Positions 7,800 to 21,740 of a stretch of DNA of 64,000 nt are shown here, piece by piece; the stretch's first letter is position 1, and each line of letters begins with the position of its first letter. Source of the DNA: Isoalcanivorax pacificus W11-5 (GTDB lineage Bacteria > Pseudomonadota > Gammaproteobacteria > Pseudomonadales > Alcanivoracaceae); contig NZ_CP004387.1 of assembly GCF_000299335.2 (NCBI RefSeq), positions 3,426,994 to 3,490,993 on the forward strand, given 5' to 3'. Below the pieces are notes generated by a model, which ran no database searches, had not been told where the DNA came from, and saw only the letters and a list, made by a program, of their open reading frames with translations. The position numbers were made by a program, and so were the translations under genes.

Positions 7800-8681
7800 A
7801 TGGCAACCCTCTTCGTGGATAACCTGACAGTGCTCGATTTTTCCTACCTGCACGGCAAGCGCGGCATGGTGGGCGAATCCTGGATCGTTGATCTGGAACT
7901 GACCGGCGATCTCGACGAGCAGGGCATGGTGTTCGACTTCGGCCTGATCAAGAAGGCCGTCAAGAAGGCCGTGGATGCCACCGTGGATCACAAACTGGTG
8001 GTGCCCGCCGACAGTGACCATCTGGTAGCCGGCCAGGCCGGCGGTGACGTCAATCTGGAGTGGGTCTATCAGGGCGGCACCATCCGCATGAAGGCGCCGA
8101 CGTGCAGCACGGTGTACCTGCCGGGCTCGGAAGTCACCAAGAGCACCCTGACCCTGTTTCTGCTGGATATCGTCCAGCCGGTGCTGCCGGCCAACGTGCG
8201 CGAGCTGGTGCTGACGTTGCGCGAGGAAGACGTGGGCACGGCACCGAGCTACCACTACTCCCACGGCCTGAAGAAACACGACGGCAACTGCCAGCGCATT
8301 GCCCACGGCCACCGCTCCTGCATCCAGATCTTCGAAAATGGCCGTCGCAGCCGCTATTGGGAAAAACTCTGGGCGGATCGCTGGGAAGATATCTACATCG
8401 GCACCCGCGAAGACCTGGAAGGCACCTACTATATTGATGAGGTGCCGCACCACCGCTTCCGCTATGAAGCCGAGCAGGGCCTGTTCGAACTGCTGATCCC
8501 CGAAGACCACTGCTACCTGATCGACACCGACTCCACCGTGGAGCATCTGGCCGAGCACATTGCCCGCCAGCTCGCCGACGAGGCGCCCGGCAAGCACTTT
8601 CGCGTGCGTGCCTTCGAAGGGGTGGCGAAAGGGGCGCTGGCTGAGGCCGGCTCGCTGGGGCCGCGGGGGCCGGTGGGGTGA
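7800..8681 (+). CDS. Double-domain 6-pyruvoyl-tetrahydropterin-synthase-like protein
   Basis: A 293-residue protein that reads as two consecutive PTPS/6-carboxytetrahydropterin-synthase-like domains. The first (residues about 1-120) has FSYLHGKRGMVGESWIVDLEL and the acidic VFDFGLIKK segment; the second starts near residue 140 with SYHYSHGLKKHDGNCQRIAHGH, which has the spaced His residues that bind zinc in this fold. Single-domain relatives make 6-carboxytetrahydropterin in queuosine synthesis or tetrahydropterins; tandem forms of this size occur in several gammaproteobacteria, often without a proven reaction. The last residues (GSLGPRGPVG) are low-complexity and run into a heptad repeat region. 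The fold is confident, the reaction is not. Confidence 0.82.
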   Translation: MATLFVDNLTVLDFSYLHGKRGMVGESWIVDLELTGDLDEQGMVFDFGLIKKAVKKAVDATVDHKLVVPADSDHLVAGQAGGDVNLEWVYQGGTIRMKAPTCSTVYLPGSEVTKSTLTLFLLDIVQPVLPANVRELVLTLREEDVGTAPSYHYSHGLKKHDGNCQRIAHGHRSCIQIFENGRRSRYWEKLWADRWEDIYIGTREDLEGTYYIDEVPHHRFRYEAEQGLFELLIPEDHCYLIDTDSTVEHLAEHIARQLADEAPGKHFRVRAFEGVAKGALAEAGSLGPRGPVG

Positions 8682-8834: not shown

Positions 8835-9806
8835 TCAAATATCCTGCTCCCGCTCGTCCGGGTCCTCGCGCAGGATATTCCCCGCCTCTTCCTGAATCAG
8901 CTTACGCAGCCAGCGGTGCGCCGCGTTGTGATGCAGCAGCGGTGACCAGGCCATCTTCAACTCAAAGCGCGGAATCACGAACGGCGGGTCCTTGATCACC
9001 AGCCTCGGGTTCTGGGCCTGCATGCGCGCCACCCGGCTCGGCAGCGTCGCCACCAGGTCATTGTTCATCGCCAGCAGCGCCGGCATCTGATAGTGGCGGG
9101 TAAAAATGGAGATGCGCCGGGTCTTGCCGATCCGCGCCAGCGCCTGGTCGATCCAGCCCAGGCCGCCGAGCTTTTCCGGGTTCATGCCGAAGCCGACGCC
9201 GAAGCCGGTCTTGGACACCCAGATATGCTGGGCGCTGAGGTAGGCATCCAGATTGAAATCCCGCGCCAGCGGGTTGCCCCGGTTCAGCAGGCAGGAAAAG
9301 TAGTCCTTCCACAGGGTGACCTGGTGGAAGGAGCGGGGGATCTCGTTGAAGCGGTTGATCGCCAGGTCCACCCGGCCCTGCTCCATGTCGGCATAGCTGA
9401 CGTCAGAGGGCGTCAGGAAATCCAGCACCACGTTCGGCGCCTCCAGCCGCAGGCGGCGCACCAGATGCGGCACCAGGGTCGCCTCGGCGTAGTCGCTGGT
9501 CATGATGCGGAACACCCGGCGGCTGCTGTCGGGCAGGAATTCCTCGTCCGGGGTCAGCATCGCTTCCGTCTGGGCCAGCACTTGGCGCACCAGCGGTTGC
9601 AGCTCCAGCGCCCGTTCGGTGGGGTTCATGCCATTGGAGGTGCGGATCAGGAGCGGGTCACCGAACAGTTCGCGCAGGCGCTTGAGGCCATTACTCATGG
9701 CTGGCTGGGAGATGCCGAGCTGGTCGGCGGCACGGGTGACGTTCAATTCGCGCAGCAGGACATCCAGGTACTTAAGCAGGTTGAGATCAACGCGACCTAT
9801 GTTCAT
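8835..9806 (-). CDS. LysR-family transcriptional regulator
   Basis: The 323-residue product (start MNIGRVDLNLLKYL) has the LysR winged-HTH at residues about 8-65 (LNVTRAADQLGISQPAMSNGLKRLRELFGDPLLIR) and a NodD/NahR-like effector domain. I prefer ATG 9804-9806 over an upstream in-frame ATG at 9878 because the family's DLNLLKYLDVLL motif normally begins within ten residues of the start. It ends convergently with the PTPS-like gene. The target is probably remote or itself; no divergent partner lies close enough, since the next gene upstream, amrZ, is more than 300 bp away. Confidence 0.88.
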   Translation of the reverse strand: MNIGRVDLNLLKYLDVLLRELNVTRAADQLGISQPAMSNGLKRLRELFGDPLLIRTSNGMNPTERALELQPLVRQVLAQTEAMLTPDEEFLPDSSRRVFRIMTSDYAEATLVPHLVRRLRLEAPNVVLDFLTPSDVSYADMEQGRVDLAINRFNEIPRSFHQVTLWKDYFSCLLNRGNPLARDFNLDAYLSAQHIWVSKTGFGVGFGMNPEKLGGLGWIDQALARIGKTRRISIFTRHYQMPALLAMNNDLVATLPSRVARMQAQNPRLVIKDPPFVIPRFELKMAWSPLLHHNAAHRWLRKLIQEEAGNILREDPDEREQDI

Positions 9807-10128
9807 GATGGGGCTCTCTGGAAGGGCTTGCTGGCAGGGCTTCCCGCCCGTCATTCGTTCTGTGAATGAAAATGCCACGATTATAATCAGGGCGAATTAT
9901 GTCACTTGCCCCGGCGCAGGTCACTTGACCCTCAGGCCGCGTCAGCCGGTGGAATCCACCCTAGAGCTTGGCCCCGGAGACGCCGCCAGAATGCGCTGCG
10001 GTCACACCATGATGTTAATCAGTACTGAGGCACACTCCCGTTTGCGGTGTAGTATCATCGGGTTGGCACGCAGCACAGACTGCTATCATTATGATATTTA
10101 AGTGTTTTTGTCGGGAGGATGGAGTGTG

Positions 10129-10476
10129 ATGGACAACAGAAAGGCATCCGTACAAACAAGACAGGAAGTGGAAAAATTCGTGGTACGCCTGCCGAAAGGC
10201 ATTCGCGGCATGATCTCGGAAATTTCCCGTATCAACCATCGCAGCATGAATTCTGAAATCGTTGCGCGACTGGAAGAAAGTCTGGGTCTGTCGGCGCCAG
10301 TGGATGGCGTCAGCGAAGCCGCACCGGAGTTGTACGCCGTCAACGGCGATCATCCGCGTCCGGACATGCAACTGACCGACGAACAGACTGCCGCCCAGCA
10401 GGAAGAGCGTCTGCTCGAGCGCTTCCGTCGCCTTTCCGGCGACCGTCGTCGCGCATTGCTGGAACTGCTGCGCTGA
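10129..10476 (+). CDS. amrZ: AmrZ/AlgZ-like ribbon-helix-helix transcription factor
   Basis: A 115-residue Arc-family regulator. The DNA-binding core VEKFVVRLPKGIRGMI, followed by INHRSMNSEIVARLEESL, matches the Pseudomonas AmrZ core almost residue for residue, and the C-terminal LLERFRRLSGDRRRALLELL matches the AmrZ tetramerisation tail. I chose ATG 10129 because GGGAGGA lies at 10113-10119, nine bases upstream; an in-frame ATG at 10102 has no such site. In Pseudomonas AmrZ controls alginate, flagella, twitching and c-di-GMP genes. Its position next to a quorum-sensing locus and GGDEF/HD-GYP genes makes a similar lifestyle role plausible, but that is inference. A strong terminator follows. 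Confidence 0.85.
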   Translation: MDNRKASVQTRQEVEKFVVRLPKGIRGMISEISRINHRSMNSEIVARLEESLGLSAPVDGVSEAAPELYAVNGDHPRPDMQLTDEQTAAQQEERLLERFRRLSGDRRRALLELLR

Positions 10477-10506
10477 TCCAGCGGGCAACCGCCTCAGTGC
10501 TCTACC

Positions 10507-10533
10507 AAGGCTGGCCAACAGGCCAGCCTTTTT
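10507..10533 (+). terminator. Rho-independent terminator of amrZ
   Basis: AAGGCTGGCC, loop AACA, GGCCAGCCTT, then TTT. A ten-base-pair perfect stem ends 23 bp before the kinase start codon, so amrZ and the quorum-sensing genes are probably separate transcripts. Confidence 0.9.
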
Positions 10534-10555
10534 ATGTCATGCGTGCCGATACCTG

Positions 10556-11842
10556 ATGATTGTCTCCCGTCTTAACCAGTCGATCAGCGAAAGTGCACAT
10601 TTTTCTCGCCACAATGCGCCCATGGTCGGCGTGCTCGGCCTGGTGAGCTTTCCGCTTTACTACTTCATCTGGCAATTTGTCTTCCCGCAGCCGTACGAAA
10701 GCGTGTGGCTGCGAATCGGTGGCGTGCTGGTGTGTATCCCGCTGCTGTTCTATCGCCTGTGGCCGGCGCGCATGCAGCGCTATTTTGCCGGCTACTGGGT
10801 GTTTGCCCTGAGCTACGCCCTGCCGTTCTTCTTTACCTACATGCTGCTGCGCAACGACCTGTCGCTGGTCTGGAGCATGAGTACCATGGCGGCGCTGTTC
10901 ATGCTGGTGCTGGCCGTGTACGACTGGCTGCTGGTGATCTGCATTGCTGTCGTCGGCTCGTTGCTGGGCTGGATGGCCTTTCTGCTGACGGCGGACAGCG
11001 CCGCCGCCTTTTCCGCCTACATGCAGCAACTGCCGATCTATGCGTTCGTGGTGATTGCAGGCAGTATCTTCAACTACACCGCTAACATGGTGAAGGAAGA
11101 AAAACTCAACGCCCACGCGGCCATCGGTCGCAATATAGCCCATGAGCTGCGTACGCCTCTTTCTGGCATGAAGGGCGCCACCTCCGGCCTGGTGCAATAC
11201 CTGCCGCACCTGGTCGCCGCACACCGCGCGGCCATGGAGGCCGGCCTGGACGTGCGCCGCATCCGCAGCACCCGCCTGGACCAGCTCAGCGACGCCGCCA
11301 ACCGTATCCAGGAGGAGATCGACTTCTCCCATACCATCATCGACATGCTGCTGCTCAGTGCCGGTCAGACCACCATCAAGCAGGATAATTTTCGCAATCA
11401 TTCCATCAATGACACCATCCGCCGGGCGCTGGAGCGATACCCGTTCAAATCCGAGCGCGAACGGCATCTGGTACAGTGGCAGGAAGGCGAAGACTTTGAA
11501 TACTATGGGTCTGACCTGCTGGTGACCCACGTGCTGTTCAACCTGACCAAGAACGCCCTGCACAGCGTCATCAGTGCCGGCAAGGGTGTGATCCATATCA
11601 GCAGCAGTCGTGGCGTGGACACCAACCGGCTGATTTTCATGGACACCGGGCCGGGCATTCCCCGTACCCAGGTAAAACACATCTTCGACTACTTTTACAC
11701 GTCGAAAACGGTTGATCAGGGTACCGGGCTCGGCCTGTCATTCTGCCGTCTGGTGATGCAGAGCCTGCATGGTGGCATCCGTTGCGAGTCCAGGCTCGGC
11801 GAATACACACTGTTCGAATTGTCTTTTCCCCGGGGTCGCTAA
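10556..11842 (+). CDS. cqsS: CqsS/LqsS-type membrane histidine kinase for alpha-hydroxyketone signals
   Basis: A 428-residue sensor kinase. Residues about 25-180 are a six-helix membrane sensor with the CqsS signature FPLYYFIWQFVFPQPYESVW and the later ALPFFFTYMLLRNDLSLVWSM. The dimerisation/phosphoacceptor box is IAHELRTPLSG with His196; the ATP-binding lid MDTGPGIP and GTGLGLSFCR lie at residues about 361-400. The protein begins MIVS like Vibrio CqsS but lacks its C-terminal receiver, as in Legionella LqsS. The neighbouring response regulator (2-bp gap) supplies that domain. CqsS kinases switch from kinase to phosphatase on binding hydroxyketones such as CAI-1 or LAI-1. The synthase gene lies convergently downstream, so signal, sensor and regulator are all local. 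Confidence 0.88.
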   Translation: MIVSRLNQSISESAHFSRHNAPMVGVLGLVSFPLYYFIWQFVFPQPYESVWLRIGGVLVCIPLLFYRLWPARMQRYFAGYWVFALSYALPFFFTYMLLRNDLSLVWSMSTMAALFMLVLAVYDWLLVICIAVVGSLLGWMAFLLTADSAAAFSAYMQQLPIYAFVVIAGSIFNYTANMVKEEKLNAHAAIGRNIAHELRTPLSGMKGATSGLVQYLPHLVAAHRAAMEAGLDVRRIRSTRLDQLSDAANRIQEEIDFSHTIIDMLLLSAGQTTIKQDNFRNHSINDTIRRALERYPFKSERERHLVQWQEGEDFEYYGSDLLVTHVLFNLTKNALHSVISAGKGVIHISSSRGVDTNRLIFMDTGPGIPRTQVKHIFDYFYTSKTVDQGTGLGLSFCRLVMQSLHGGIRCESRLGEYTLFELSFPRGR

Positions 11843-11844
11843 TC

Positions 11845-12855
11845 ATGTTGAAGCCTGTCATTCAGCCCTACTTTCATCCCACCACCGTGGTGATGGTGGA
11901 TGACAACGAACGGTTTCTCGATAATTTCAGCCTGCAGCTGGATGAGAAACTGGCCTGTGTCTTCTATTCCTCGGCCGTGGAATGCCTGGCGATGCTCAAC
12001 GGCCGCGCCAAGCGCACGCCGCTGGACCAGCGCTGCTTCTCCTACTACCAGCAGCCGTCCAACACGGCCTCGAACCGGGTCATCCGGCTGGACCTGACCC
12101 TGATCGAGCAGGAGATCAGCAATCCGGAGCGCTTCCGCGACATTTCCGTGGTCGTGGTCGACTACGACATGCCGGAGATGACCGGCCTGGAATTCTGCCA
12201 GCGCATCCGCAACCACCGTATCAAGAAGATTCTGCTGACCGGCGTGGCGGACGAGAAAATCGCCGTGGAGGCGTTCAACGCCGGCATCATCGATCACTTC
12301 ATGATGAAGAGCGATCCGCAGATCACGATGCGCATCAACAAGACCATCAATGACCTGCAGCGCCGTTATTTCTCCGAAATTTCCTCGCTGATCCAGAGCA
12401 CGCTGGCACTGGAAGCGCCGGATTTTCTCTACGATGCCGACTTCATCCGCTATTTCTTCGATCTGGTCGACAGGCACCATGTCGCCGAGTACTACTACGT
12501 CGAGGACCCGACCGGCTTCCTGATGGTGAGCGAGACCGGCCAGCTCTGGCGCCTGGTGGTCTATAGCGAAACCGACCTGCAACGCACCCTGTTCAACCTG
12601 CGCGGCCTGAAACCGCCGGCCGCCCTGATGAAACGCATCTCTTCCGGCAAGGCAGTGCCGTGGCTGTGGGCATCACCGGACGAATTCGACGAGGATGAGG
12701 ATTTCTTCTGGGACGATTACGTGCACACAGCAACGCGTGTCAGCGGCGACCAGACCTGGTTCTGCGCACTGGTGGAAAGCCCGCCGGCAGATATTGAGTA
12801 CGACAGCGAAACCTCCAGCTACATGGCCTACCTGGAAGAGCTCGACAAGCAATAA
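11845..12855 (+). CDS. LqsR-type response regulator with enlarged receiver domain
   Basis: A 336-residue protein starting two bases after the kinase stop. The receiver has the acidic pair VMVDDN (Asp19, Asp20), the phosphoacceptor in VVVVDYDMPEMTG (Asp106), the Thr in ILLTGVADE and the Lys in HFMMKSD. About 86 residues separate the acidic pair from the phospho-Asp, roughly 40 more than in CheY-type receivers; the insert covers about residues 50-95. The C-terminal 150 residues (from FLYDADFIRYFFDLVDRHH) match no DNA-binding fold that I recognise. Organisation and length fit Legionella LqsR, the regulator of the Lqs system. An earlier in-frame ATG at 11782 lies inside the kinase gene and is unlikely. 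Confidence 0.82.
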   Translation: MLKPVIQPYFHPTTVVMVDDNERFLDNFSLQLDEKLACVFYSSAVECLAMLNGRAKRTPLDQRCFSYYQQPSNTASNRVIRLDLTLIEQEISNPERFRDISVVVVDYDMPEMTGLEFCQRIRNHRIKKILLTGVADEKIAVEAFNAGIIDHFMMKSDPQITMRINKTINDLQRRYFSEISSLIQSTLALEAPDFLYDADFIRYFFDLVDRHHVAEYYYVEDPTGFLMVSETGQLWRLVVYSETDLQRTLFNLRGLKPPAALMKRISSGKAVPWLWASPDEFDEDEDFFWDDYVHTATRVSGDQTWFCALVESPPADIEYDSETSSYMAYLEELDKQ

Positions 12856-12901
12856 GCCTCTCTGCAGCACAAGCCCCGCAGCCCGCCCCCGGCGGCCGGA
12901 C

Positions 12902-12949
12902 CCAGGGAAAGTGCCCGGAAAAGCCGAGGCTTTTCCAGGCCTTCCCTGG
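12902..12949. terminator. Bidirectional terminator between response regulator and cqsA
   Basis: An inner hairpin GGAAAAGC-CGAG-GCTTTTCC at 12917-12936 is enclosed by CCAGGGAA (12902-12909) and TTCCCTGG (12942-12949). It lies in the 111-bp gap between the two convergent genes. Confidence 0.7.
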
Positions 12950-12966
12950 CTCAGGCCCGGGATCTA

Positions 12967-14226
12967 TCAGCCGACGGCACGCTGACGTGTCACCACGTCA
13001 CGATGCAGACGACGGGTCGACGCCCAGTCCCACATACCCACTTCATCACGAATCTCCGCACACACATCGAGCACATGCCCGACCTGATTGAGCGTCAGGC
13101 CGGCGTTGATGCTCAGGCGAATCATCGAGCGGTTCTTGGCCGTTGCCGGTGCGCAGAACACCGAGCCGAACACGTCACGCTCCTCCAGCGCCTCGCGCAG
13201 TTTCAGGGTCAGGTTTTCCGGCCCGGCTTCCAGCGAGATGATCTGCGACTGGCTGGCCGAGACGTTGTAGCCCAGCTCGGTCAGCCCGTTGCGCAGAAAG
13301 TCGGAGTTCATCCGCATGGCCTCACGCCGCCAGCCATCACGAATGATGATGTCGAGCGTCTTGTCGAGGCCGGCGATTTCATACGGCAGCAGACAGGAAC
13401 TGAAAATCGCCGTTCGCGCGGTGCACCAGAAATACTCCTCGAAGGTCTTGCTGCAGAGGATGATGCCAGCACGGCCGGAGAACGCCTTGGCCAGGCTCGC
13501 GGTGACAAAATGCACCCGGTCATTGAGACCGTACTCGCGCACCATGCCACTGCCGAACGGCCCATGCGTCCCGAGCGAATGGGACTCGTCGACGATGATC
13601 AGGCAACCGAATTCGGTGGCGAGATCCACTACCCCCTCCAGTTCACACAACGCCCCCATGGTGCTGTACACCGAATCCACACAGACAATGCCCTGTCCGT
13701 ATGTCTTCAACTGCCGCCGCAGGTGCTCCAGATCGTTGTGGCGGAATGGCCGCACCTGGGCGCCGGCACTGATCACGCCTTCCCACATGGACGCATGGGC
13801 GTTCATGTCCATGTACACCGGCACACCATCACTGGCCAGCACCTGGATCAGCCCCACGTTGGCGGCGTACCCGGACTGCGCCAGGATCGACGATTCATAG
13901 CCGGTGTAATCCGCCATGCGCCGCTCGAACCGGCGCTGGTGGTTGTCACCGCGCAGGAACGACCCGGACATCAGCACGCTCTGGGTGTCTCCCAGCAGAC
14001 AGTCCACCTGCGCTTTCACGATTTCCTCGTGTCCGGCGATGCTCAGGTAATCGTTGCTCAACAACTGGATCGACTGCCGGTCAGGAATGCGACCCCGAAG
14101 GATGTGCTTGCCCCCCCACAGTTTCCCCCAGCGCTCCAGGAAAAATTCATCCATACGGCGTTTCAGAAAATCCGGCATGTCGGCGATTTTCGTCTGTACG
14201 GACAGTTCGTTGAGTTTGATATTCAT
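12967..14226 (-). CDS. cqsA: Alpha-hydroxyketone autoinducer synthase CqsA/LqsA
   Basis: A 419-residue PLP enzyme of the alpha-oxoamine synthase family. It joins an acyl-CoA to an amino-acid-derived substrate and yields the CAI-1/LAI-1 type signal. The N-terminus has the CqsA-specific segment RIPDRQSIQLLSNDYLSIAG; the cofactor residues are Asp213 in VDESHSLGTHG and the Schiff-base Lys247 in VTASLAKAFSGRAG. It is 20-30 residues longer than V. cholerae CqsA, close to LqsA. GGAG precedes the ATG by eight bases. It is convergent with the kinase-regulator pair and divergent from a GGDEF gene across 571 bp. It differs from BioF and KBL by its N-terminus and by this context. Confidence 0.92.
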   Translation of the reverse strand: MNIKLNELSVQTKIADMPDFLKRRMDEFFLERWGKLWGGKHILRGRIPDRQSIQLLSNDYLSIAGHEEIVKAQVDCLLGDTQSVLMSGSFLRGDNHQRRFERRMADYTGYESSILAQSGYAANVGLIQVLASDGVPVYMDMNAHASMWEGVISAGAQVRPFRHNDLEHLRRQLKTYGQGIVCVDSVYSTMGALCELEGVVDLATEFGCLIIVDESHSLGTHGPFGSGMVREYGLNDRVHFVTASLAKAFSGRAGIILCSKTFEEYFWCTARTAIFSSCLLPYEIAGLDKTLDIIIRDGWRREAMRMNSDFLRNGLTELGYNVSASQSQIISLEAGPENLTLKLREALEERDVFGSVFCAPATAKNRSMIRLSINAGLTLNQVGHVLDVCAEIRDEVGMWDWASTRRLHRDVVTRQRAVG

Positions 14227-14797
14227 GCATTTGTCTCCGATTAATACTGATTTGGTTTATCAGCAACACGTCATGGCTTGCTGATGGCAGAACGTGACGC
14301 GCTCTGTTTGTTTTTTCACGCCACGTTTCTAAGATAGAGCAAAGGTGATGGCTCTTTTACATCCGCTGATATCGAACGAATGCGAGGGAAAGGCTGCAAA
14401 AAACAGGTCAGATATCGGCCTGATATCAAGCTGATTGTCTTTTGATACCCAGGGATTTTTTTGTTTTTGAGGATCGCGAGAGAACGCCGCAGCAGGCAGC
14501 AGAAAAACCTCTTTTCGGCGATGTTTTTCTGGCAGAAAAATTTCTCTGCAAAGCAAAATCTGAATGCCATTCAGCGGTCATGTGTAAACTCTATGAACGC
14601 GTCCTGCACTGGCATCGGGCAAGGGAGCCGGAACAGGGCATCGTCCTCTGCGGCAGTCATGATTTCATAATGCCTGCACGGCCTGTCGGCTGCGCATCAC
14701 CCGGCAACTGGTGGCAGCCCGCCCGCCGGTGGTAATCTATTGAGCCGCAAGGGGTTGTTTGCGTTACCCGGGACCACCCGGGACGTCAGGGGCAGGG
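14227..14797. promoter_or_regulatory. 571-bp AT-rich divergent control region between cqsA and the GGDEF gene
   Basis: No convincing gene lies here. The segment 14285-14600 is markedly more AT-rich than its surroundings. It contains three copies of the palindrome GATATC (14368-14373, 14411-14416, 14422-14427, the last two 11 bp apart). It also holds an inverted pair CAGAAAAAC/GTTTTTCTG (14500-14508 and 14523-14531) directly followed by the near-palindrome GCAGAAAAATTTCTCTGC (14532-14549). A short minus-strand frame at 14316-14570 is Phe/Lys-rich with no start signal and is not called. Confidence 0.55.
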
Positions 14798-16033
14798 ATG
14801 AACAGTCAGCAGTCACTACAAGAAGACCAGTCATTACCCAACGGACGCGACCTGGCCCTGCCCTGGCACCTGACCCTGCCAGCGCGGCTGGAAAGCGCCT
14901 TCCGCGAACAGTTCCGCGACAACGCTGCCCGCCTGATTCCCGCTGCCACCATCTTGATGCTGCTGGTGTATGTCGTGGCCTTTGCGGTCGAGCATCATGT
15001 GGCCCCGGAGGCCACCGAGATCAGTTGGCGGCCGCGCCTGCTGGCCGCCATGGTCACGGTGGGCGTACTGCTGGCAAGCCGCCATGCCCTGCGCTGGCTG
15101 CAGCCGGCGGTGGCCGGCATGGCACTGGTGGTTGCCGGCATCCACCTGTACCTGGGGCTCAGCGTCGATCACCCACTGCAGGATGCCTACTTCTACGTCC
15201 CGTTCCTGGCCATCCTGCTGCTTGGCAGCCTGTTTCGCATCCAGCTCTACTGGGCGTTACCCACCAGCCTGGCCATCCTCGCCGCGCAGGCGGTGATCCT
15301 GTTCGGCGCCAGCCACCTCAGCGACGCCGAGGCGCTGGTGATCACCGCCTTCACCGCCTGCGCCACGGTCATGAGCCTGTTCGGCCAGTATTTCTTTGAG
15401 CGCCTGCAAAGGCAGCATTTCCTTTCCGACCGGGTACTGCACCTGCACCGCAGCGAATTGCATGCCGCCAACCGGTCCTTGGAAAGCCAGGCTACCGAGG
15501 ACGGCCTCACCGGCGCGGTCAACCGGCGCGGCATGGACGTGCGCCTGAGCAACCTGCTGCACAACATGCAGCACCAGGCGCGCGGCGCCCCGGACAGCAT
15601 CGCCGTGCTGCTGTTCGATATCGACTACTTCAAGCAATACAACGACACCTACGGCCATCAGGCTGGTGATGAATGCCTCAAGGCAGTGGCCGAGGTGCCC
15701 AAGGCCATGGTGCAGCGGGCCACCGATTTCGTTGCCCGTTATGGCGGCGAGGAATTTGTCATCGTGCTGGGTGGCACTCGGCTGCGTGATGCGCTGGTGT
15801 TTGCGGAACGCATGCGCGCCCGTATTGAGCGGCTCGGCATTCCGCACCGCAACTCCAAAAGCAACAACGTGGTCACCATCAGCATCGGTGTGGCCTGCAC
15901 CGCCGAGGGTGTTGATTCTGCCGAGCGACTGATCCACCTCGCCGACGAAGCGCTCTACCAGGCCAAAGGCGCCGGCCGTAACCGGGTCGCCTGCGTCGAT
16001 GACGACGGCTCCGTGCGAGTCCTCACCCCATGA
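14798..16033 (+). CDS. Membrane diguanylate cyclase (intact GGDEF)
   Basis: A 411-residue inner-membrane protein. Residues about 45-200 hold roughly six membrane helices, followed by a short coiled linker (about 205-232) and a GGDEF domain. The active site is intact: FDIDYFKQYND with the metal-binding Asp at about 274, and YGGEEF at 315-320. The inhibitory site RATD lies five residues upstream of GGEEF, so product feedback is likely. It should make c-di-GMP from two GTP. I chose ATG 14798 over 14759, which would add Pro/Gly-rich residues; GGCAGGG lies just upstream. It overlaps the following paralogue by 4 bp. Its long divergent promoter region is shared with cqsA. Confidence 0.9.
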   Translation: MNSQQSLQEDQSLPNGRDLALPWHLTLPARLESAFREQFRDNAARLIPAATILMLLVYVVAFAVEHHVAPEATEISWRPRLLAAMVTVGVLLASRHALRWLQPAVAGMALVVAGIHLYLGLSVDHPLQDAYFYVPFLAILLLGSLFRIQLYWALPTSLAILAAQAVILFGASHLSDAEALVITAFTACATVMSLFGQYFFERLQRQHFLSDRVLHLHRSELHAANRSLESQATEDGLTGAVNRRGMDVRLSNLLHNMQHQARGAPDSIAVLLFDIDYFKQYNDTYGHQAGDECLKAVAEVPKAMVQRATDFVARYGGEEFVIVLGGTRLRDALVFAERMRARIERLGIPHRNSKSNNVVTISIGVACTAEGVDSAERLIHLADEALYQAKGAGRNRVACVDDDGSVRVLTP

Positions 16034-17265
16034 CGTCACTGCCCGGGAAGGACCCTGTGCAGCAACACCCGCCGCCAGACACCCCGGTGGCCCAACTCGA
16101 CCGGCTCACTGCACTGCTGCACCGGCCGATCTGGCTGCTGCGCTTCCCTGCGGCGCTGGAGCAACCCTTCTGGCGCCGGCAACAACCGGCCCAGGTGCTG
16201 GCCGCACGCATCGGTGTACTGGTTGGCATACCGCTGTACCTGATCACCACACTGATCGAATGGCGCACCGATCCGGCACTGTTACGCCTCACCCTGCCAA
16301 CCCGCGCGCTGGCGATCGGGCTGCTGTTGCTGGTGGGCGTGGCGGCCAGTTGCGCCATGACGCGCCGTCATCTGGCGTGGATCGTACCGCTGGCCATCCT
16401 GTTGCTGAACAGCCTGCAACTGTATATCTGCCGCTTCAGCGCACCGGCCTACCAGGCGATGACCCTGCTGTGGATGCTGCTGCCGCTGACCTTCATGAGC
16501 ACGGTCTCGCGGGTGCCGTTTCGTTGCGCACTGTGGGTGGGACTGTGTACCGCCGGTGGCTTCCTGCTATGTTCGGCCCGCTTTTCCAGCCTTTCCGGTA
16601 TCCAGCTCTATCACACCGGTTTCTTTTTTCTCTCTTTCATCCTGATCCTGCTGCTGAGTCACTTTTTCAATGAACGGCTGCAACGCCAGCGTTTCCTGCA
16701 GGCCAGCCTGCTCAATCTGCACCGGCGCGGCCTGCACCGGCCGGACCCCGGCCAGCCGGAGGTTCTGCAACCGGACCGCGAACTTGGCGTGGTCAGCCGC
16801 GCTGCGCTGGATCAGCGGCTGCGCAAGCACTTTGCCTACCACCACCCGCCACGTATCGCCGTGGTGATCTGCACGCTGGATCATTTCGATACCCTCGTCG
16901 CCACCTACAGCGAACACGAGGCGCTGTTCTGCCTGGCCACCGTGGCACGCACGGCGCAACGCATGGTTGCTGGCAGCGGTGATTTTGTCGCCCGGCGTGG
17001 TGACCGCTCTCTGGCGCTGGTACTGGAAGGCGGCAATGGCTTCGATGCACTGCATCTGGCAGAACGCTTGCGCCGGCAAGTGGAGGCCATGGGGATTCCG
17101 CACTTTGGCAGCCCAAGCCAGGTCATCACGCTCAGTGGCGGCGTAGCCGCCAGCGAACACCTGCGCGAACCAAGCGCCGATACCTTGCTGCAGGCTGCCG
17201 ATCAGGCCCTGTCGCGGGCCCTCGCTGCCGGCGGCAACCGCAGCGAGGCGTGGCGTTCAGCGTGA
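16030..17265 (+). CDS. Degenerate GGDEF membrane protein, paralogue of the upstream cyclase
   Basis: A 411-residue protein, the same length and layout as its upstream neighbour: membrane region at about 50-215, then a GGDEF-like domain. Alignment by eye shows the catalytic motif replaced (FVARYGGEEF becomes FVARRGDRSL), the metal motif altered (FDIDYFKQYND becomes CTLDHFDTLVA) and the I-site Arg lost (RATD becomes GSGD). The FVAR context is kept, pointing to tandem duplication. It cannot be a normal cyclase and may regulate the active copy, for instance as a heterodimer. Translation is coupled by the ATGA overlap at 16030-16033. Its 3' end overlaps the convergent M23 gene by 9 bp. Confidence 0.85.
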   Translation: MTSLPGKDPVQQHPPPDTPVAQLDRLTALLHRPIWLLRFPAALEQPFWRRQQPAQVLAARIGVLVGIPLYLITTLIEWRTDPALLRLTLPTRALAIGLLLLVGVAASCAMTRRHLAWIVPLAILLLNSLQLYICRFSAPAYQAMTLLWMLLPLTFMSTVSRVPFRCALWVGLCTAGGFLLCSARFSSLSGIQLYHTGFFFLSFILILLLSHFFNERLQRQRFLQASLLNLHRRGLHRPDPGQPEVLQPDRELGVVSRAALDQRLRKHFAYHHPPRIAVVICTLDHFDTLVATYSEHEALFCLATVARTAQRMVAGSGDFVARRGDRSLALVLEGGNGFDALHLAERLRRQVEAMGIPHFGSPSQVITLSGGVAASEHLREPSADTLLQAADQALSRALAAGGNRSEAWRSA

Positions 17266-18081
17266 CGGCATCGGCCCGACCACGGTGGTCGGGTCCAACC
17301 GCTCCTGAAACCAATTGATGCGCCAGTCCAGATGCGGCCCGGTGGCACGCCCGGTGGCACCGACGCGGGCCACGGCCTGCCCCTGTGTCACCTCGTCGCC
17401 TTCCTGCACCAGCATTTCACTCAGATGAATGAAGGTGGTCGAGACGCCGTAGCCGTGATCAATGATCAGGGTGCCACCGGAATAGAACATGTCGTCGTGT
17501 ACCAGCGTCACCACACCCGCCGCCGGTGCCACCACCGGCGTACCGGTGGGCGCGGCGATATCCAGGCCCAGGTGCGGGCTGCCGGGCACGCCGTTGTAGA
17601 CACGCTGGCTGCCATATACGCCGCTGATGCGGCCGGTCAGCGGCCAGATGAAGCCGTCGGCGAAAAAATCCAGCGAGCTGTCGGTATCCCGCGCCCTGCG
17701 CACCAGCGCCGTTTCTTCACGAATGCGCGCCAGCACCTCCGGCGGCGGCGGATCAACGGTGCGTTGCGGCACGCCCTCGATGCGCTGGATATTCCATTCG
17801 CGTGGCGACAACGGCAGACGGACCCGTTCCTCCCGTGCTCCCTGCTTCAGCAGCAATGTCGCCTCGCCCTCGGTATCGCGCCCGAAGCCGAACGGCACCT
17901 GGCCCGCCGGGCTCACACGCAATGGCGTATCGCCCAGCCACACCTGCGTACCCGGCACCACCTCCGCCCGCAGCAGGGCGCCGGGCGCCGGGTCGCCGTG
18001 CAGGGTGATCAGCAGGGAATCCGCCGCCCGGGCGGCCACAGACAACAACAGACACAGACTACAAATAAGAACTCGCATCAC
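17257..18081 (-). CDS. Exported M23-family (LytM) metallopeptidase-like protein
   Basis: A 274-residue protein with a signal peptide (MMRVLICSLCLLLSVAARAA). A beta-rich domain occupies residues about 20-110, and the LytM domain about 150-265. The first zinc motif is HLGLD. The second is GPHLDW, where classical members have H-x-H, so the last His is Asp. This Asp form recurs in a proteobacterial subgroup (TGPHLDWR-INWF pattern), so it may be a distinct zinc site or a non-catalytic amidase activator. It acts on or near peptidoglycan in the periplasm. It overlaps the end of the upstream HD-GYP gene by 23 bp, indicating co-transcription. Confidence 0.88.
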   Translation of the reverse strand: MMRVLICSLCLLLSVAARAADSLLITLHGDPAPGALLRAEVVPGTQVWLGDTPLRVSPAGQVPFGFGRDTEGEATLLLKQGAREERVRLPLSPREWNIQRIEGVPQRTVDPPPPEVLARIREETALVRRARDTDSSLDFFADGFIWPLTGRISGVYGSQRVYNGVPGSPHLGLDIAAPTGTPVVAPAAGVVTLVHDDMFYSGGTLIIDHGYGVSTTFIHLSEMLVQEGDEVTQGQAVARVGATGRATGPHLDWRINWFQERLDPTTVVGPMPSR

Positions 18082-19624
18082 TCACATCCAGTTGCGCCGG
18101 GTCGAGAATCTGGAGGGCATAGCTTTCCCAGACCCGGGCGCGGACAAACAGTTCATACAGCCCGGCATCGATATGCCGGGCATCGCGCATGCGTCGCAGG
18201 ATACCCAGCGCTTCGGAAATTTTCATCGGTGACTTATAAGGGCGGTCGTGGGCAGTGAGCGCCTCGAACACGTCGGCAATCGCCATCATCCGCGCCGGCA
18301 GCGACATCTGCTCGCCGGTCAGGCCACGCGGGAAACCCGTGCCGTCGATACGCTCGTGATGACCACCGGCGTATTCCGGCACCCGGCGCAGCTTGCGTGG
18401 AAAGGGCAGCGACTCAAGCATGTCCAGCGTGACCTGGATGTGGTTGTTGATGATGTCCCGTTCGGCAGGGGTCAGCGTCCCCCGGACAATACACAGTGTG
18501 GCCACTTCCTCATCACTGAGCAGCGGTTGCAGCACACCGTCGACGTCACGCCACTCGCGCATGGCGATCTCGCGCACGCGCTGCTGGTCGGCCTCGGCCA
18601 TGCGCTCGCTACCGACATTGATACGGCGCAGGAACGCCAGCTCATCCACCAGCGTCTCCAGCGTGCGCGCCAGCGTCTCGGCCAGGGCCTCTGCCGCCTG
18701 CGGCTCATCCGCCACGGCGGCAGCACACTCCGCCTGATACTGCACGCGCAGCACGGCGAAGCGTGTCGCCACCTCGTCGATGCGGTCATGCAGGGTGTGC
18801 AGCTTGGTGGATTTTTCCAGCACGGAGTCCGGCGTGGTCAGCTTGCCGCAATCGTGCAGCCAGGCGGCCACGCGCAGTTCATACCATTCGTCGTCGTTCA
18901 GGTTGAAATCGGCGTAGTGCTGCTGGTCCTCACAGGCGGCCCGGGCCAGCAGTTCAGTCAGCAACGGCACTCGCTGGCAGTGGCCGGAGGTGTGCGAGCT
19001 TTTCTCGTCCACTGCTCGCGCGATCACCTTGATGAAGGCATCCAGCAGTTGCTCCATCTCCTGAACCAGCAGGACATTATGCAAGGCGATGGCGGCATAA
19101 TTGGCCACCCCGGACACCAGTGCCAGCAGGCGCGGCGGAAAATCCGTCACTTCCTGCGAGTCATCATCGCGGGCGTTGAACAGTTGCAGCACGCCGAGCA
19201 CTTCGCGGCCGTGATTGAGCAGCGGCACCACCAGGCTGTTTTCCACCCGTTCGCGCATGTCCGGCGGCACACCGGCCAGTTCGCCCGGTTGCGGGCCGAC
19301 CAGCACTTCACCGCTGAGCACCGCGCGGGCAGCCGGATGCAGGCTGCCGGCGGCAACCACCACCGGCGCTGCCGTCACCGGTACCCCGCCGGCGCCGCCC
19401 TGGCACAGCACCAGCGCCGGCCAGCGCAGCAGCACGCATTCCAGTTGCGGCGCCCGCGCGCCGGCACCGTCATCCAGCAGGTACAGCATGCCGCCATCTG
19501 CCCGCGCCAGCAGCCGTGCCTCGTCGAGGATCACTTCACACAGGCGCAGCGTGTCACGCTGCATGGTAATGCGCTGCGCGACACGCAGAAGACGCTGATA
19601 ATGTTGCGGGCTGAACGGTTCCAT
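18059..19624 (-). CDS. GAF-HD-GYP-type c-di-GMP phosphodiesterase
   Basis: A 521-residue cytoplasmic protein. A GAF domain spans residues about 15-185. An HD-GYP domain follows with HTSGHCQRV, the metal-binding AAWLHDCGKL and the signature GGHHERIDGTGFP (GFP in place of GYP). Between the HD and GYP halves there is an insertion of about 100 residues rich in Ala, Glu and Leu, probably helical. HD-GYP proteins hydrolyse c-di-GMP to pGpG or GMP. It is the third c-di-GMP gene within 5 kb, next to the GGDEF pair and the quorum-sensing locus. The start at 19624 gives a GAF domain of normal length. Confidence 0.88.
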   Translation of the reverse strand: MEPFSPQHYQRLLRVAQRITMQRDTLRLCEVILDEARLLARADGGMLYLLDDGAGARAPQLECVLLRWPALVLCQGGAGGVPVTAAPVVVAAGSLHPAARAVLSGEVLVGPQPGELAGVPPDMRERVENSLVVPLLNHGREVLGVLQLFNARDDDSQEVTDFPPRLLALVSGVANYAAIALHNVLLVQEMEQLLDAFIKVIARAVDEKSSHTSGHCQRVPLLTELLARAACEDQQHYADFNLNDDEWYELRVAAWLHDCGKLTTPDSVLEKSTKLHTLHDRIDEVATRFAVLRVQYQAECAAAVADEPQAAEALAETLARTLETLVDELAFLRRINVGSERMAEADQQRVREIAMREWRDVDGVLQPLLSDEEVATLCIVRGTLTPAERDIINNHIQVTLDMLESLPFPRKLRRVPEYAGGHHERIDGTGFPRGLTGEQMSLPARMMAIADVFEALTAHDRPYKSPMKISEALGILRRMRDARHIDAGLYELFVRARVWESYALQILDPAQLDVSDASSYL

Positions 19625-19826: not shown

Positions 19827-21740
19827 ATGAGCATAGCGTACCGGCTGCCCGACGGGGCGGCCCTGGAATTTGAGCAGCCCGTGTCCGGCAGCGAGATCGC
19901 CGAACGCATCAGTAAAAAGCTGGCCAAACAGGCCCTGGCCGTGAAAGTGGACGGCCAGTTGCGGGACGTCTATCTGACCGTCCCGGCGGGCGCCACCGTC
20001 CAGATCATCACCCGTGAGGACGCCGATGCGCTGGAACTGATCCGTCACGATGCCGCGCACGTCATGGCCGAGGCCGTGCAGGAGCTGTTCCCCGGGACCC
20101 AGGTCACCATCGGCCCGACCATCGAAAACGGCTTCTATTACGACTTCCACCGCGAGCAGCCGTTCACCCCGGACGACCTCAAGGCGATCGAGAAGCGCAT
20201 GCAGGATATCGTGCGCCGCAACGAAGAGATCCGCCGCGAAGTCTGGGACCGTGACGAGGCCATCGCCTTCTTCCTGGAAAAGGGCGAGACCTTCAAGGCC
20301 GAGATCATCCGCGAGCTGCCGGCGGGCGAGGAAGTGAGCCTGTACCGCCAGGGCGACTTCATCGACCTGTGCCGTGGCCCGCACCTGCCCGCCACCAGCA
20401 AGCTCGGTGACGGCTTCAAACTGACCAAGGTGGCCGGCGCCTACTGGCGTGGCGACAGCAACAACGCCCAGTTGCAACGCATCTACGGCACGGCCTGGCG
20501 CGACAAGAACGAGCTGAACGAACATCTTCGCCAGCTTGAAGAAGCCGCCAAGCGCGATCACCGCAAGCTGGGCCGGGAAATGGACCTGTTCCACCAGCAG
20601 GAAGAAGCCCCCGGCATGGTGTTCTGGCACCCGCGCGGCTGGGCCATCTGGCAGAAGGTCGAGCAGTATGTGCGCCAGGTGTACCGCAAGAGCGGTTATC
20701 AGGAAGTGCGTGGCCCGCAGATCATGGATGTGAGCCTGTGGAAGAAATCCGGCCACTGGGACAACTACCAGGACAACATGTTCTTCACTGAATCCGAAAA
20801 ACGGATCTACGCGGTGAAGCCGATGAACTGCCCTGGCCATGTGCAGATCTACAACGCTGCCCTGCACAGCTACCGTGACCTGCCGATCCGCTATGCCGAG
20901 TTTGGCGGCTGCCACCGCAACGAGCCGTCCGGCGCCCTGCACGGCATCATGCGCGTGCGTGCCTTTACCCAGGACGATGGCCACATCTTCTGCACCGAAG
21001 ATCAGGTGCAGGAAGAGGTGACCGCATTCCACCAGCAGGCCATGAAGGTGTACGCGGACTTCGGCTTCGAGAATATCTCCGTGAAGCTGGCGCTGCGCCC
21101 GGACAAGCGCATCGGCACTGACGACGCCTGGGACAAGGCCGAAGCCGGCCTGCGTGCCGCGCTGGCCAGCGCCGGCGTGGAATGGGAAGAAATGCCCGGC
21201 GAAGGCGCCTTCTACGGGCCGAAGATCGAATACCATCTGAAGGACTCCATCGGGCGCTCCTGGCAGATGGGCACCGTGCAGTTTGATCCGATGATGCCGG
21301 AGCGCCTGGACGCCGAGTACGTCGACGAGCACTCCCAGCGCCAGCGCCCGATCATGCTGCACCGCGCCATCCTCGGCTCCATGGAGCGTTTCATCGGTAT
21401 CCTGATCGAACACCACGCCGGCCACCTGCCGCTGTGGCTGGCGCCGGTGCCGGTGGTGATTGCCACCATCACCAATGCTGCCGATGAGTACGCCAACAGC
21501 GTGCGGGACACACTGGAAGCCGCGGGCGTAACGGTGGAAATGGACCTGCGCAACGAAAAGATCGGCTACAAGGTGCGCGAGCATTCCGCTGCCAAAGTGC
21601 CGGTGATTTTCGTCATCGGCGAACAGGAAGCGAACGAAGGCAAGGTCGCCATCCGTCGCCTGGGCAGCCGCGACACCGAGGTCGTCGCGCTGGCCGACGC
21701 CGTACAACAGATACAGGACGCCACCCGCATACCGGGCTGA
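19827..21740 (+). CDS. thrS: Threonyl-tRNA synthetase
   Basis: A 637-residue class II synthetase of standard length. An N-terminal TGS domain (residues about 1-60) is followed by the editing domain (about 65-225; [17 protein letters not shown] carries the metal-binding HxxxH). Then come the catalytic core, with zinc-binding [10 protein letters not shown] (Cys about 334) and [16 protein letters not shown], and a C-terminal anticodon-binding domain. It charges tRNA-Thr in the cytoplasm. The gene leads a compact cluster with hisI (7-bp gap) and cysS (5-bp gap), rather than the thrS-infC-rpmI arrangement of enterobacteria. Confidence 0.97.

Follow-up and report, generated by a model that had tools for sequence, protein, structure and literature searches.

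This work concerns a locus for alpha-hydroxyketone (AHK) quorum sensing in Isoalcanivorax pacificus W11-5, contained in a 64,000-nucleotide stretch of DNA (hereafter the window) that spans positions 3426994-3490993 of a single-contig genome of 4,168,427 bases (NZ_CP004387.1). Searches of open reading frames against Pfam and NCBIfam recovered every gene listed in an initial annotation of the locus: an AmrZ-like ribbon-helix-helix (RHH) regulator, a histidine kinase (HK), a response regulator (RR), a facing AHK synthase gene (cqsA), two GGDEF genes (dgc1 and dgc2) and a gene for an HD-GYP phosphodiesterase (Table 1). That inventory stands for the HD-GYP gene, which is present with its motifs, and is incomplete in one respect, having overlooked an M23 peptidase gene that separates the HD-GYP gene from the GGDEF pair, encoded on the opposite strand. 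No Rfam family reached its gathering score between positions 8000 and 22000 of the window.

Table 1. Genes and sequence features of the AHK locus, in window coordinates
Feature	Position	Strand	Evidence and remarks
LysR-type regulator gene	8835..9878	-	Pfam HTH_1 and LysR_substrate; left flank of conserved framework
Palindrome TATCATTATGATA, candidate operator	10084..10096	.	Upstream of RHH; overlaps a weak -10-like hexamer
AmrZ-like RHH regulator, 115 aa	10129..10476	+	Pfam Arc 1.9e-15; PDB AmrZ 3qoq 4e-12; proposed first gene of AHK operon
Terminator-like hairpin between RHH and HK	10507..10530	+	10-pair stem, then T run
CqsS/LqsS-type membrane HK, His196, without receiver domain	10556..11842	+	HATPase_c 2.2e-18
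LqsR-type RR	11842..12855	+	PDB 6sy9 2e-62
CqsA/LqsA-type AHK synthase	12967..14226	-	NF005526 571 bits; PDB 3hqt 1.4e-104
TATCA-N3-TGATA palindromes, tandem pair with 1 mismatch in each copy, candidate operator	14413..14436	.	Between cqsA and dgc1, 11 bp apart
dgc1, membrane GGDEF protein, GGEEF and RxxD intact	14759..16033	+	Pfam GGDEF 3.3e-47
dgc2, degenerate GGDEF protein	16030..17265	+	Pfam GGDEF 1.7e-20; start overlaps dgc1 stop
M23 peptidase gene	17257..18081	-	Pfam Peptidase_M23 3.6e-29; overlaps HD-GYP gene
GAF-HD-GYP phosphodiesterase (predicted)	18059..19624	-	HD_5 2.3e-42, GAF 9.8e-10
thrS	19827..21740	+	Pfam tRNA-synt_2b, TGS; right flank of conserved framework

The synthase scores well above the NCBIfam AHK-synthase cut-off (428 bits), aligns to CAI-1 synthase structures and carries, within a conserved ASLAK stretch, Lys247, which we take to be the pyridoxal phosphate lysine; this residue is kept in all 13 aligned sequences of the family, and the protein is 99% identical to the CqsA of 'Alcanivorax sp. 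S71-1-4'. In the adjacent kinase the HATPase_c domain exceeds its Pfam cut-off and HisKA falls just below it (26.5 versus 26.9 bits), the histidine being kept in the 12 of 12 family sequences that cover the position; a simple scale gives only four clear hydrophobic segments, as against six spans. Pfam finds no receiver domain in the kinase, only HATPase_c and the HisKA match, and its layout is therefore Lqs-like. Residues 10-336 of the response regulator match a PDB chain named only 'Response regulator', which we take to be Legionella LqsR, and the phospho-acceptor aspartate is kept in 13 of 13 family sequences. The full set of AHK genes described in the initial annotation is thus borne out with its residues intact in relatives, and the sensor it called CqsS-type belongs to that family and has the expected histidine, the absence of a receiver being the point on which the label needs amending. 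Judged from its sequence, the locus is a real, conserved AHK cluster of the Lqs type, and its AmrZ-like leading gene is what is new about it. By analogy with these families, CqsA would make an AHK, the membrane kinase would sense it, and the kinase would exchange phosphate with the LqsR-type regulator; production of the signal is thus a prediction from family membership. Phe172 of the kinase stands in the column that we read as the CqsS tail-length position, located by its presumed distance from the phospho-histidine in V. cholerae, and suggests a signal with a shorter tail. The Vibrio position is given as C170/F175 in the accessible text of PMC3285556.

The family's synthases form one group (93/96, narrowly short of the tool's star), as do its kinases (SH-aLRT 100, quick tree), which makes a single origin and mostly vertical descent likely. 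The Lqs system of Legionella (LqsA/LqsS/LqsR) shares with this cluster the AHK synthase, the kinase without receiver and the separate LqsR-type regulator. It differs in that the present locus has its kinase and regulator genes arranged head to tail and running toward the synthase gene, an AmrZ-like gene leading the presumed operon, a GGDEF gene beside the synthase, and no hdeD between kinase and regulator, going by the Lqs gene order in the portion of PMC3376566 available to us. The Jqs system of Janthinobacterium (JqsA/JqsS/JqsR), from a non-pathogenic environmental bacterium, likewise has synthase, kinase and regulator adjacent, whereas the main text of PMC3566124, as far as accessible, mentions no AmrZ-like or GGDEF neighbors and contains no occurrence of c-di-GMP (cyclic di-GMP). 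With Vibrio CqsA/CqsS the cluster has in common the synthase family and the tail-length column occupied by Phe172, and it departs from that system in the receiver-less kinase and the LqsR-type partner. The partners of Vibrio CqsS are LuxU and LuxO. A survey of PhcX/LqsR regulators reports that lqs clusters occur widely among Alpha-, Beta- and Gammaproteobacteria, and its main text, in the part available, does not name Alcanivorax or describe an RHH gene (PMC10653808). Our literature searches found no paper joining Alcanivorax with cqsA and quorum sensing, or with hydroxyketone.

The conservation of the locus was assessed in a family set of 46 genomes, for which we use the genus and family codes of the genome collection (g1-g8; f1, f21, f40). 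A synthase above the NF005526 cut-off occurs in 13 of the 46, distributed as 7/7 in the window's own genus (g1), 1/1 in g5, 2/2 in g6, 2/3 in g7 and 1/2 in g8, and is missing from g2 (0/17), g3 (0/13) and g4 (0/1), that is, from all 30 genomes of g2 and g3. We read the loci of all 13 cqsA-bearing genomes and of 18 without cqsA (8 of the 17 in g2, 9 of the 13 in g3 and one in g8). Wherever the genes were found their order was constant: HIT, a PTPS-domain gene, lysR, RHH, dgc1, HD-GYP, thrS, hisI and cysS. The gene lysR was present in 29 of the 31 loci, the exceptions being the portions read of G023, which lacks its left neighbors as well, and of G044; HIT is missing in G042 and G043, and about 10 kb lie between dgc1 and HD-GYP in G001. 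HK, RR and cqsA lie between RHH and dgc1 in all 12 cqsA loci in which both ends are visible (the contig of G044 starts inside HK), and dgc1 adjoins cqsA in 13 of 13. In all 17 cqsA-less g2 and g3 loci read, RHH is followed directly by dgc1, usually with M23, HD-GYP and thrS next, and each of the 30 g2 and g3 genomes has a dgc1 homologue scoring above 390 bits; G045 has neither the cassette nor dgc1 in its read locus. HD-GYP and dgc2 were rejected as constant parts of the cluster. A match to the former at 1e-30 was obtained in 39 of 46 family genomes and was lacking in four of the 13 with cqsA (G033, G034, G036 and G037, all g1) and in the cqsA-less G010, G031 and G041; dgc2 is confined to two of 12 readable cqsA loci, those of the window species and G035, and is absent from the other ten.

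The RHH-dgc1 neighborhood thus also stands where there is no cqsA, so that the GGDEF/HD-GYP surroundings are independent of the synthase: the c-di-GMP island is a shared family neighborhood and not specific to cqsA. The comparison extended beyond the family. Synthases above cut-off were found in 8 of 390 genomes of the order (five of them from the family itself), 8 of 369 of the class and 16 of 398 of the phylum, in overlapping draws, and 24 outside cqsA loci were available (23 fetched plus L004; one holds a sub-cut-off second copy and several end at contig ends). Single-sequence and profile searches found GGDEF genes in three of 26 outside loci: one of the 24 with cqsA (L072, a GGDEF-EAL gene) and two f40 loci fetched for their RHH genes (L137 and L138). 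HD-GYP was found in none of the 26. The single GGDEF gene near cqsA in these 24 loci compares with 2.46 expected for the 22 genomes with GGDEF counts, which is no significant depletion (P 0.295; the genome counts used another profile). With GGDEF genes not enriched near cqsA outside the family, a general linkage of cqsA with c-di-GMP genes was rejected. In the window genome, which has 15 GGDEF genes and an expectation of 0.034 in a random 9.5 kb, their clustering is one inherited event and no independent coincidence in each genome.

These counts bear on the proposal, made in the initial annotation, that the AHK genes and the GGDEF/HD-GYP genes form a single density-dependent switch between motility and biofilm, selected to stay together. 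The constant adjacency of dgc1 and cqsA speaks for it, as do palindromes in the region the two genes share (see below), the link of Legionella LqsS to c-di-GMP through LvbR and Hnox1 described in the accessible text of PMC11237717, and a GGDEF-EAL gene adjoining RHH in the f40 genome G175. Set against these are the identical neighborhood in relatives without cqsA, the inconstancy of HD-GYP and dgc2, and the lack of enrichment outside the family, and we consider such a functional island quite improbable. The neighborhood that the initial annotation took to be special to cqsA is shown by g2 and g3 to be the more widespread of the two, conservation next to cqsA holds for dgc1 and not for its two companions, and the switch, insofar as it was argued from the neighborhood, is weakened. 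A link from cell density to c-di-GMP may run by another route, through RHH together with the palindromes in its upstream region and in the cqsA-dgc1 interval.

The c-di-GMP proteins themselves agree by their motifs with their initial description as an active and a degenerate cyclase with a phosphodiesterase. The predicted active cyclase dgc1 keeps RxxD and GGEEF (RATDFVARYGGEEF), the latter in 18 of 19 aligned sequences, with that of G032 unread, and RxxD is lost in several relatives; dgc2 has RRGDRSL at the GGDEF site and is degenerate, with its active-site motif lost. The HD-GYP protein keeps LHDCGK and HHERIDGTGFP, with F for Y. The c-di-GMP gene mutated in PMC6440734 is, in the text available, ABO_2691, a GGDEF-EAL gene and hence different from dgc1 by domain content.

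The RHH protein has an Arc-like domain and AmrZ as its best PDB match, as the initial annotation had proposed, and shares with Pseudomonas AmrZ the RHH domain with its KFVVRLP strand, the same in the window species as in most relatives, and a similar C-terminal tail. It differs from Pseudomonas AmrZ in that its gene heads a presumed AHK operon near a cyclase gene and in its branch: in the RHH tree, which is of a short protein and leaves out two of 16 outside sequences (both of G106), the RHHs of the family and of f40 form one group (97/93), separate from the f21 (Pseudomonas-type) AmrZ and apart from 12 other RHHs. The RHHs of cassette-less genomes, G045 included, are one clade (98/94). Matches to RHH occur in 18 of 145 genomes of the order. 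In G332, of family f40, RHH-HK-RR is followed by a cqsA facing it, with an additional gene separating RR from cqsA, and dgc1 was not found at this locus. G120, another genome with an RHH locus, has about 5 kb from RHH a gene related to the GGDEF-EAL gene beside RHH in G175, on a contig that ends before any kinase is visible. The occurrence of RHH-HK-RR(-cqsA) in a second family, the grouping of the RHHs and the recurring palindromes make RHH look like part of the quorum-sensing operon.

G175, also of f40 and given as 99% complete, has an apparent RHH-HK-RR operon (L137, 9010-11649) and is not among the AHK synthase matches of the order draw in which it falls; it might possibly be a listener only. 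Divergently beside its RHH lies a gene that we read as REC-PAS-GGDEF-EAL, GGDEF and EAL having been found by search.

Alignment of the promoter regions of the window's own genus showed a palindrome, TGATGGCA-N3-TGCCATCA. With at most one mismatch, TGGCA-N3-TGCCA has 59 matches in 32 loci, 25 of them (two in G332) in promoter regions, which account for only 3% of the sequence scanned. Since this motif had been spotted first, all 5-base half-sites with spacers of 0-10 were scanned as a control, and it ranked second of 231 half-site and spacer combinations, with eight of its 11 perfect copies in the RHH and cqsA-dgc1 promoter regions. The 41 promoter regions of the family hold 22 sites against 0.73 expected from shuffles of the same promoters, located in 16 of 28 RHH promoters and six of 13 cqsA-dgc1 regions, counts that are not independent events because the genomes are related. 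G332, which lay outside motif discovery, has a perfect copy upstream of cqsA and another upstream of RHH. The AmrZ site, described in the text accessible to us as an A/T-rich stretch, GCC and an A/T-rich stretch, fits the TGGCA form and does not fit the TATCA form found in the window. The combination ranking first, ATTCA-N5-TGAAT, was not used as an RHH operator: all 11 copies in 31 family loci (11 genomes) are confined to the lysR-RHH intergenic region, it resembles what we take to be the LysR-regulator type of site, and it may belong to the divergent LysR regulator.

The window species carries a variant. TATCA-N3-TGATA with at most one mismatch occurs three times in the 64 kb, always in the RHH and cqsA-dgc1 promoters, against 0.24 expected, and none of 100 shuffles reached three. 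The motif was picked from the exhaustive scan, so that the copy in the RHH promoter is no independent test and the tandem pair between cqsA and dgc1 is one; local shuffles would give 0.006 copies where the pair stands. RHH proteins as a class bind paired sites spaced by one turn of the helix. The same tandem layout recurs in G039, there upstream of RHH, and the motif is absent between cqsA and dgc1 in G039 and G040. Promoter-like hexamers at 10063-10092 lie upstream of RHH, in numbers not above chance. The TGGCA form was rejected as operator of the window species, whose genome has nine perfect copies, six in genes (by a simple gene call), two intergenic and the ninth between HD-GYP and thrS. 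Elsewhere in the window genome, at L187 (1357-5554), two tandem genes encode putative 7TM-type sensor histidine kinases, and a perfect TATCATTATGATA, one of three other perfect TATCA copies in this genome, lies across the start given for the second.

The reading that we consider probable is that of an Lqs-type AHK cluster whose receptor operon has an AmrZ-like first gene and is tuned through palindromes, with HK-RR-cqsA lost in the ancestor of g2 and g3. On this account RHH would be co-transcribed as the first gene of RHH-HK-RR and would repress or tune its own promoter and the cqsA-dgc1 promoter region through the 5-N3-5 palindromes, and it would adjust the expression of the receptor operon and cqsA, possibly also of dgc1, and may affect c-di-GMP. 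The framework lysR-RHH-...-dgc1-(M23)-HD-GYP-thrS is kept across most of the family, with HK-RR-cqsA coming and going inside it, and loss of HK-RR-cqsA would most probably have left RHH directly before dgc1. A link of RHH and AHK sensing to c-di-GMP would not be strange, given that Legionella Lqs touches c-di-GMP and that in P. aeruginosa the gene for the diguanylate cyclase AdcA is under repression by AmrZ (PMC3946381).

Several observations weigh against this reading. In the window species the terminator-like hairpin separates RHH from HK; such an element is present in two of 12 family RHH-HK gaps (window species and G035), hairpins of this kind are no more numerous than in shuffles, and it could possibly be an attenuator of the receptor genes. 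Both promoters of the window species lack the TGGCA form at up to one mismatch despite the KFVVRLP strand, so the TATCA element may be the site of another binder, or else RHH specificity lies elsewhere. The G332 site before cqsA also stands before a divergent aminopeptidase-like gene. No TGGCA site was found in the RHH loci of G175 and G120 or in four f21 amrZ loci, and among 16 RHH loci from outside the family three contain a one-mismatch copy, which in G106 lies some 155 bp ahead of RHH. The motif is moreover found genome-wide, with 31 copies in G034 (control 5) and 29 in G037 (control 0), and another regulator could own it. Of 22 G034 sites inspected, 16 were read as intergenic, and most of these adjoin genes that have no obvious connection, with no clear theme in our own sequence reading; in both genomes the sites may amount to a sizeable unassigned regulon.

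The same genome-wide copies favor an account of pure hitch-hiking, in which the AHK cassette and its dgc1/HD-GYP neighbors are together by ancestry only, regulated separately, and some global regulator unconnected with them owns the palindromes. The framework is indeed conserved without the cassette, and the TATCA copy at L187 overlaps the start of a 7TM-type sensor-kinase gene, which is no c-di-GMP gene. This account has to contend with the concentration of the palindromes at the RHH and cqsA-dgc1 promoters and with their presence in a second family that shares RHH and cqsA but not dgc1, and we regard it as rather unlikely.

A further point against the preferred reading concerns its history. 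The species backbone is open both in the rpoB tree (rpoB was obtained from all but 4 of 30 genomes) and in a concatenation, so that gain and loss are not settled by the species tree. RHH-dgc1 might then be the ancestral pair, with HK-RR-cqsA inserted between them: the cqsA-less genera g2 and g3 form one well supported clade (100/100), and the open backbone allows a single gain in the remaining genera. What argues against insertion is that G332 and G175 have RHH-HK-RR without dgc1 and RHHs that group with those of the family, for which reason RHH-HK-RR looks older than RHH-dgc1; we hold a gain to be unlikely. The simplest reading takes RHH-HK-RR(-cqsA) as an old unit and RHH-dgc1 as the remainder after loss, and transfer between families is also possible.

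A bolder form of the palindrome-tuned cluster would have an AmrZ-family repressor built into AHK quorum sensing in two families, encoded at the head of the receptor operon and binding matched palindromes at its own promoter and at cqsA, with the adjacent cyclase captured under the same operator and the orphaned repressor kept before the cyclase after AHK loss. We put this forward tentatively, as doubtful; if true, the connection from quorum sensing to c-di-GMP would have been made by gene neighborhood. Among the literature matches listed, one, a secretion review, held AmrZ together with an AHK term. Detailed knowledge of AHK signalling comes from Vibrio and Legionella, and a little from Janthinobacterium. 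Here it is conserved within one family of oil-degrading marine bacteria, and the sister genera that lack the cluster at the same locus provide a natural control. The downstream role of LqsR-type regulators is posed as a question in PMC10653808, as far as its text was available, and an AmrZ-like partner with candidate operators offers a concrete start on it.

At the right flank of the framework, thrS seems to occur in two forms, one 86-89% identical to that of the window in G032, G020, G002 and G006 (loci L035, L047, L054 and L056) and one 66-74% identical in the other relatives read, with 95% identity in the window's own sister. The two forms are scattered across genera, unlike the neighboring cysS and hisI, a pattern that suggests replacement by recombination.

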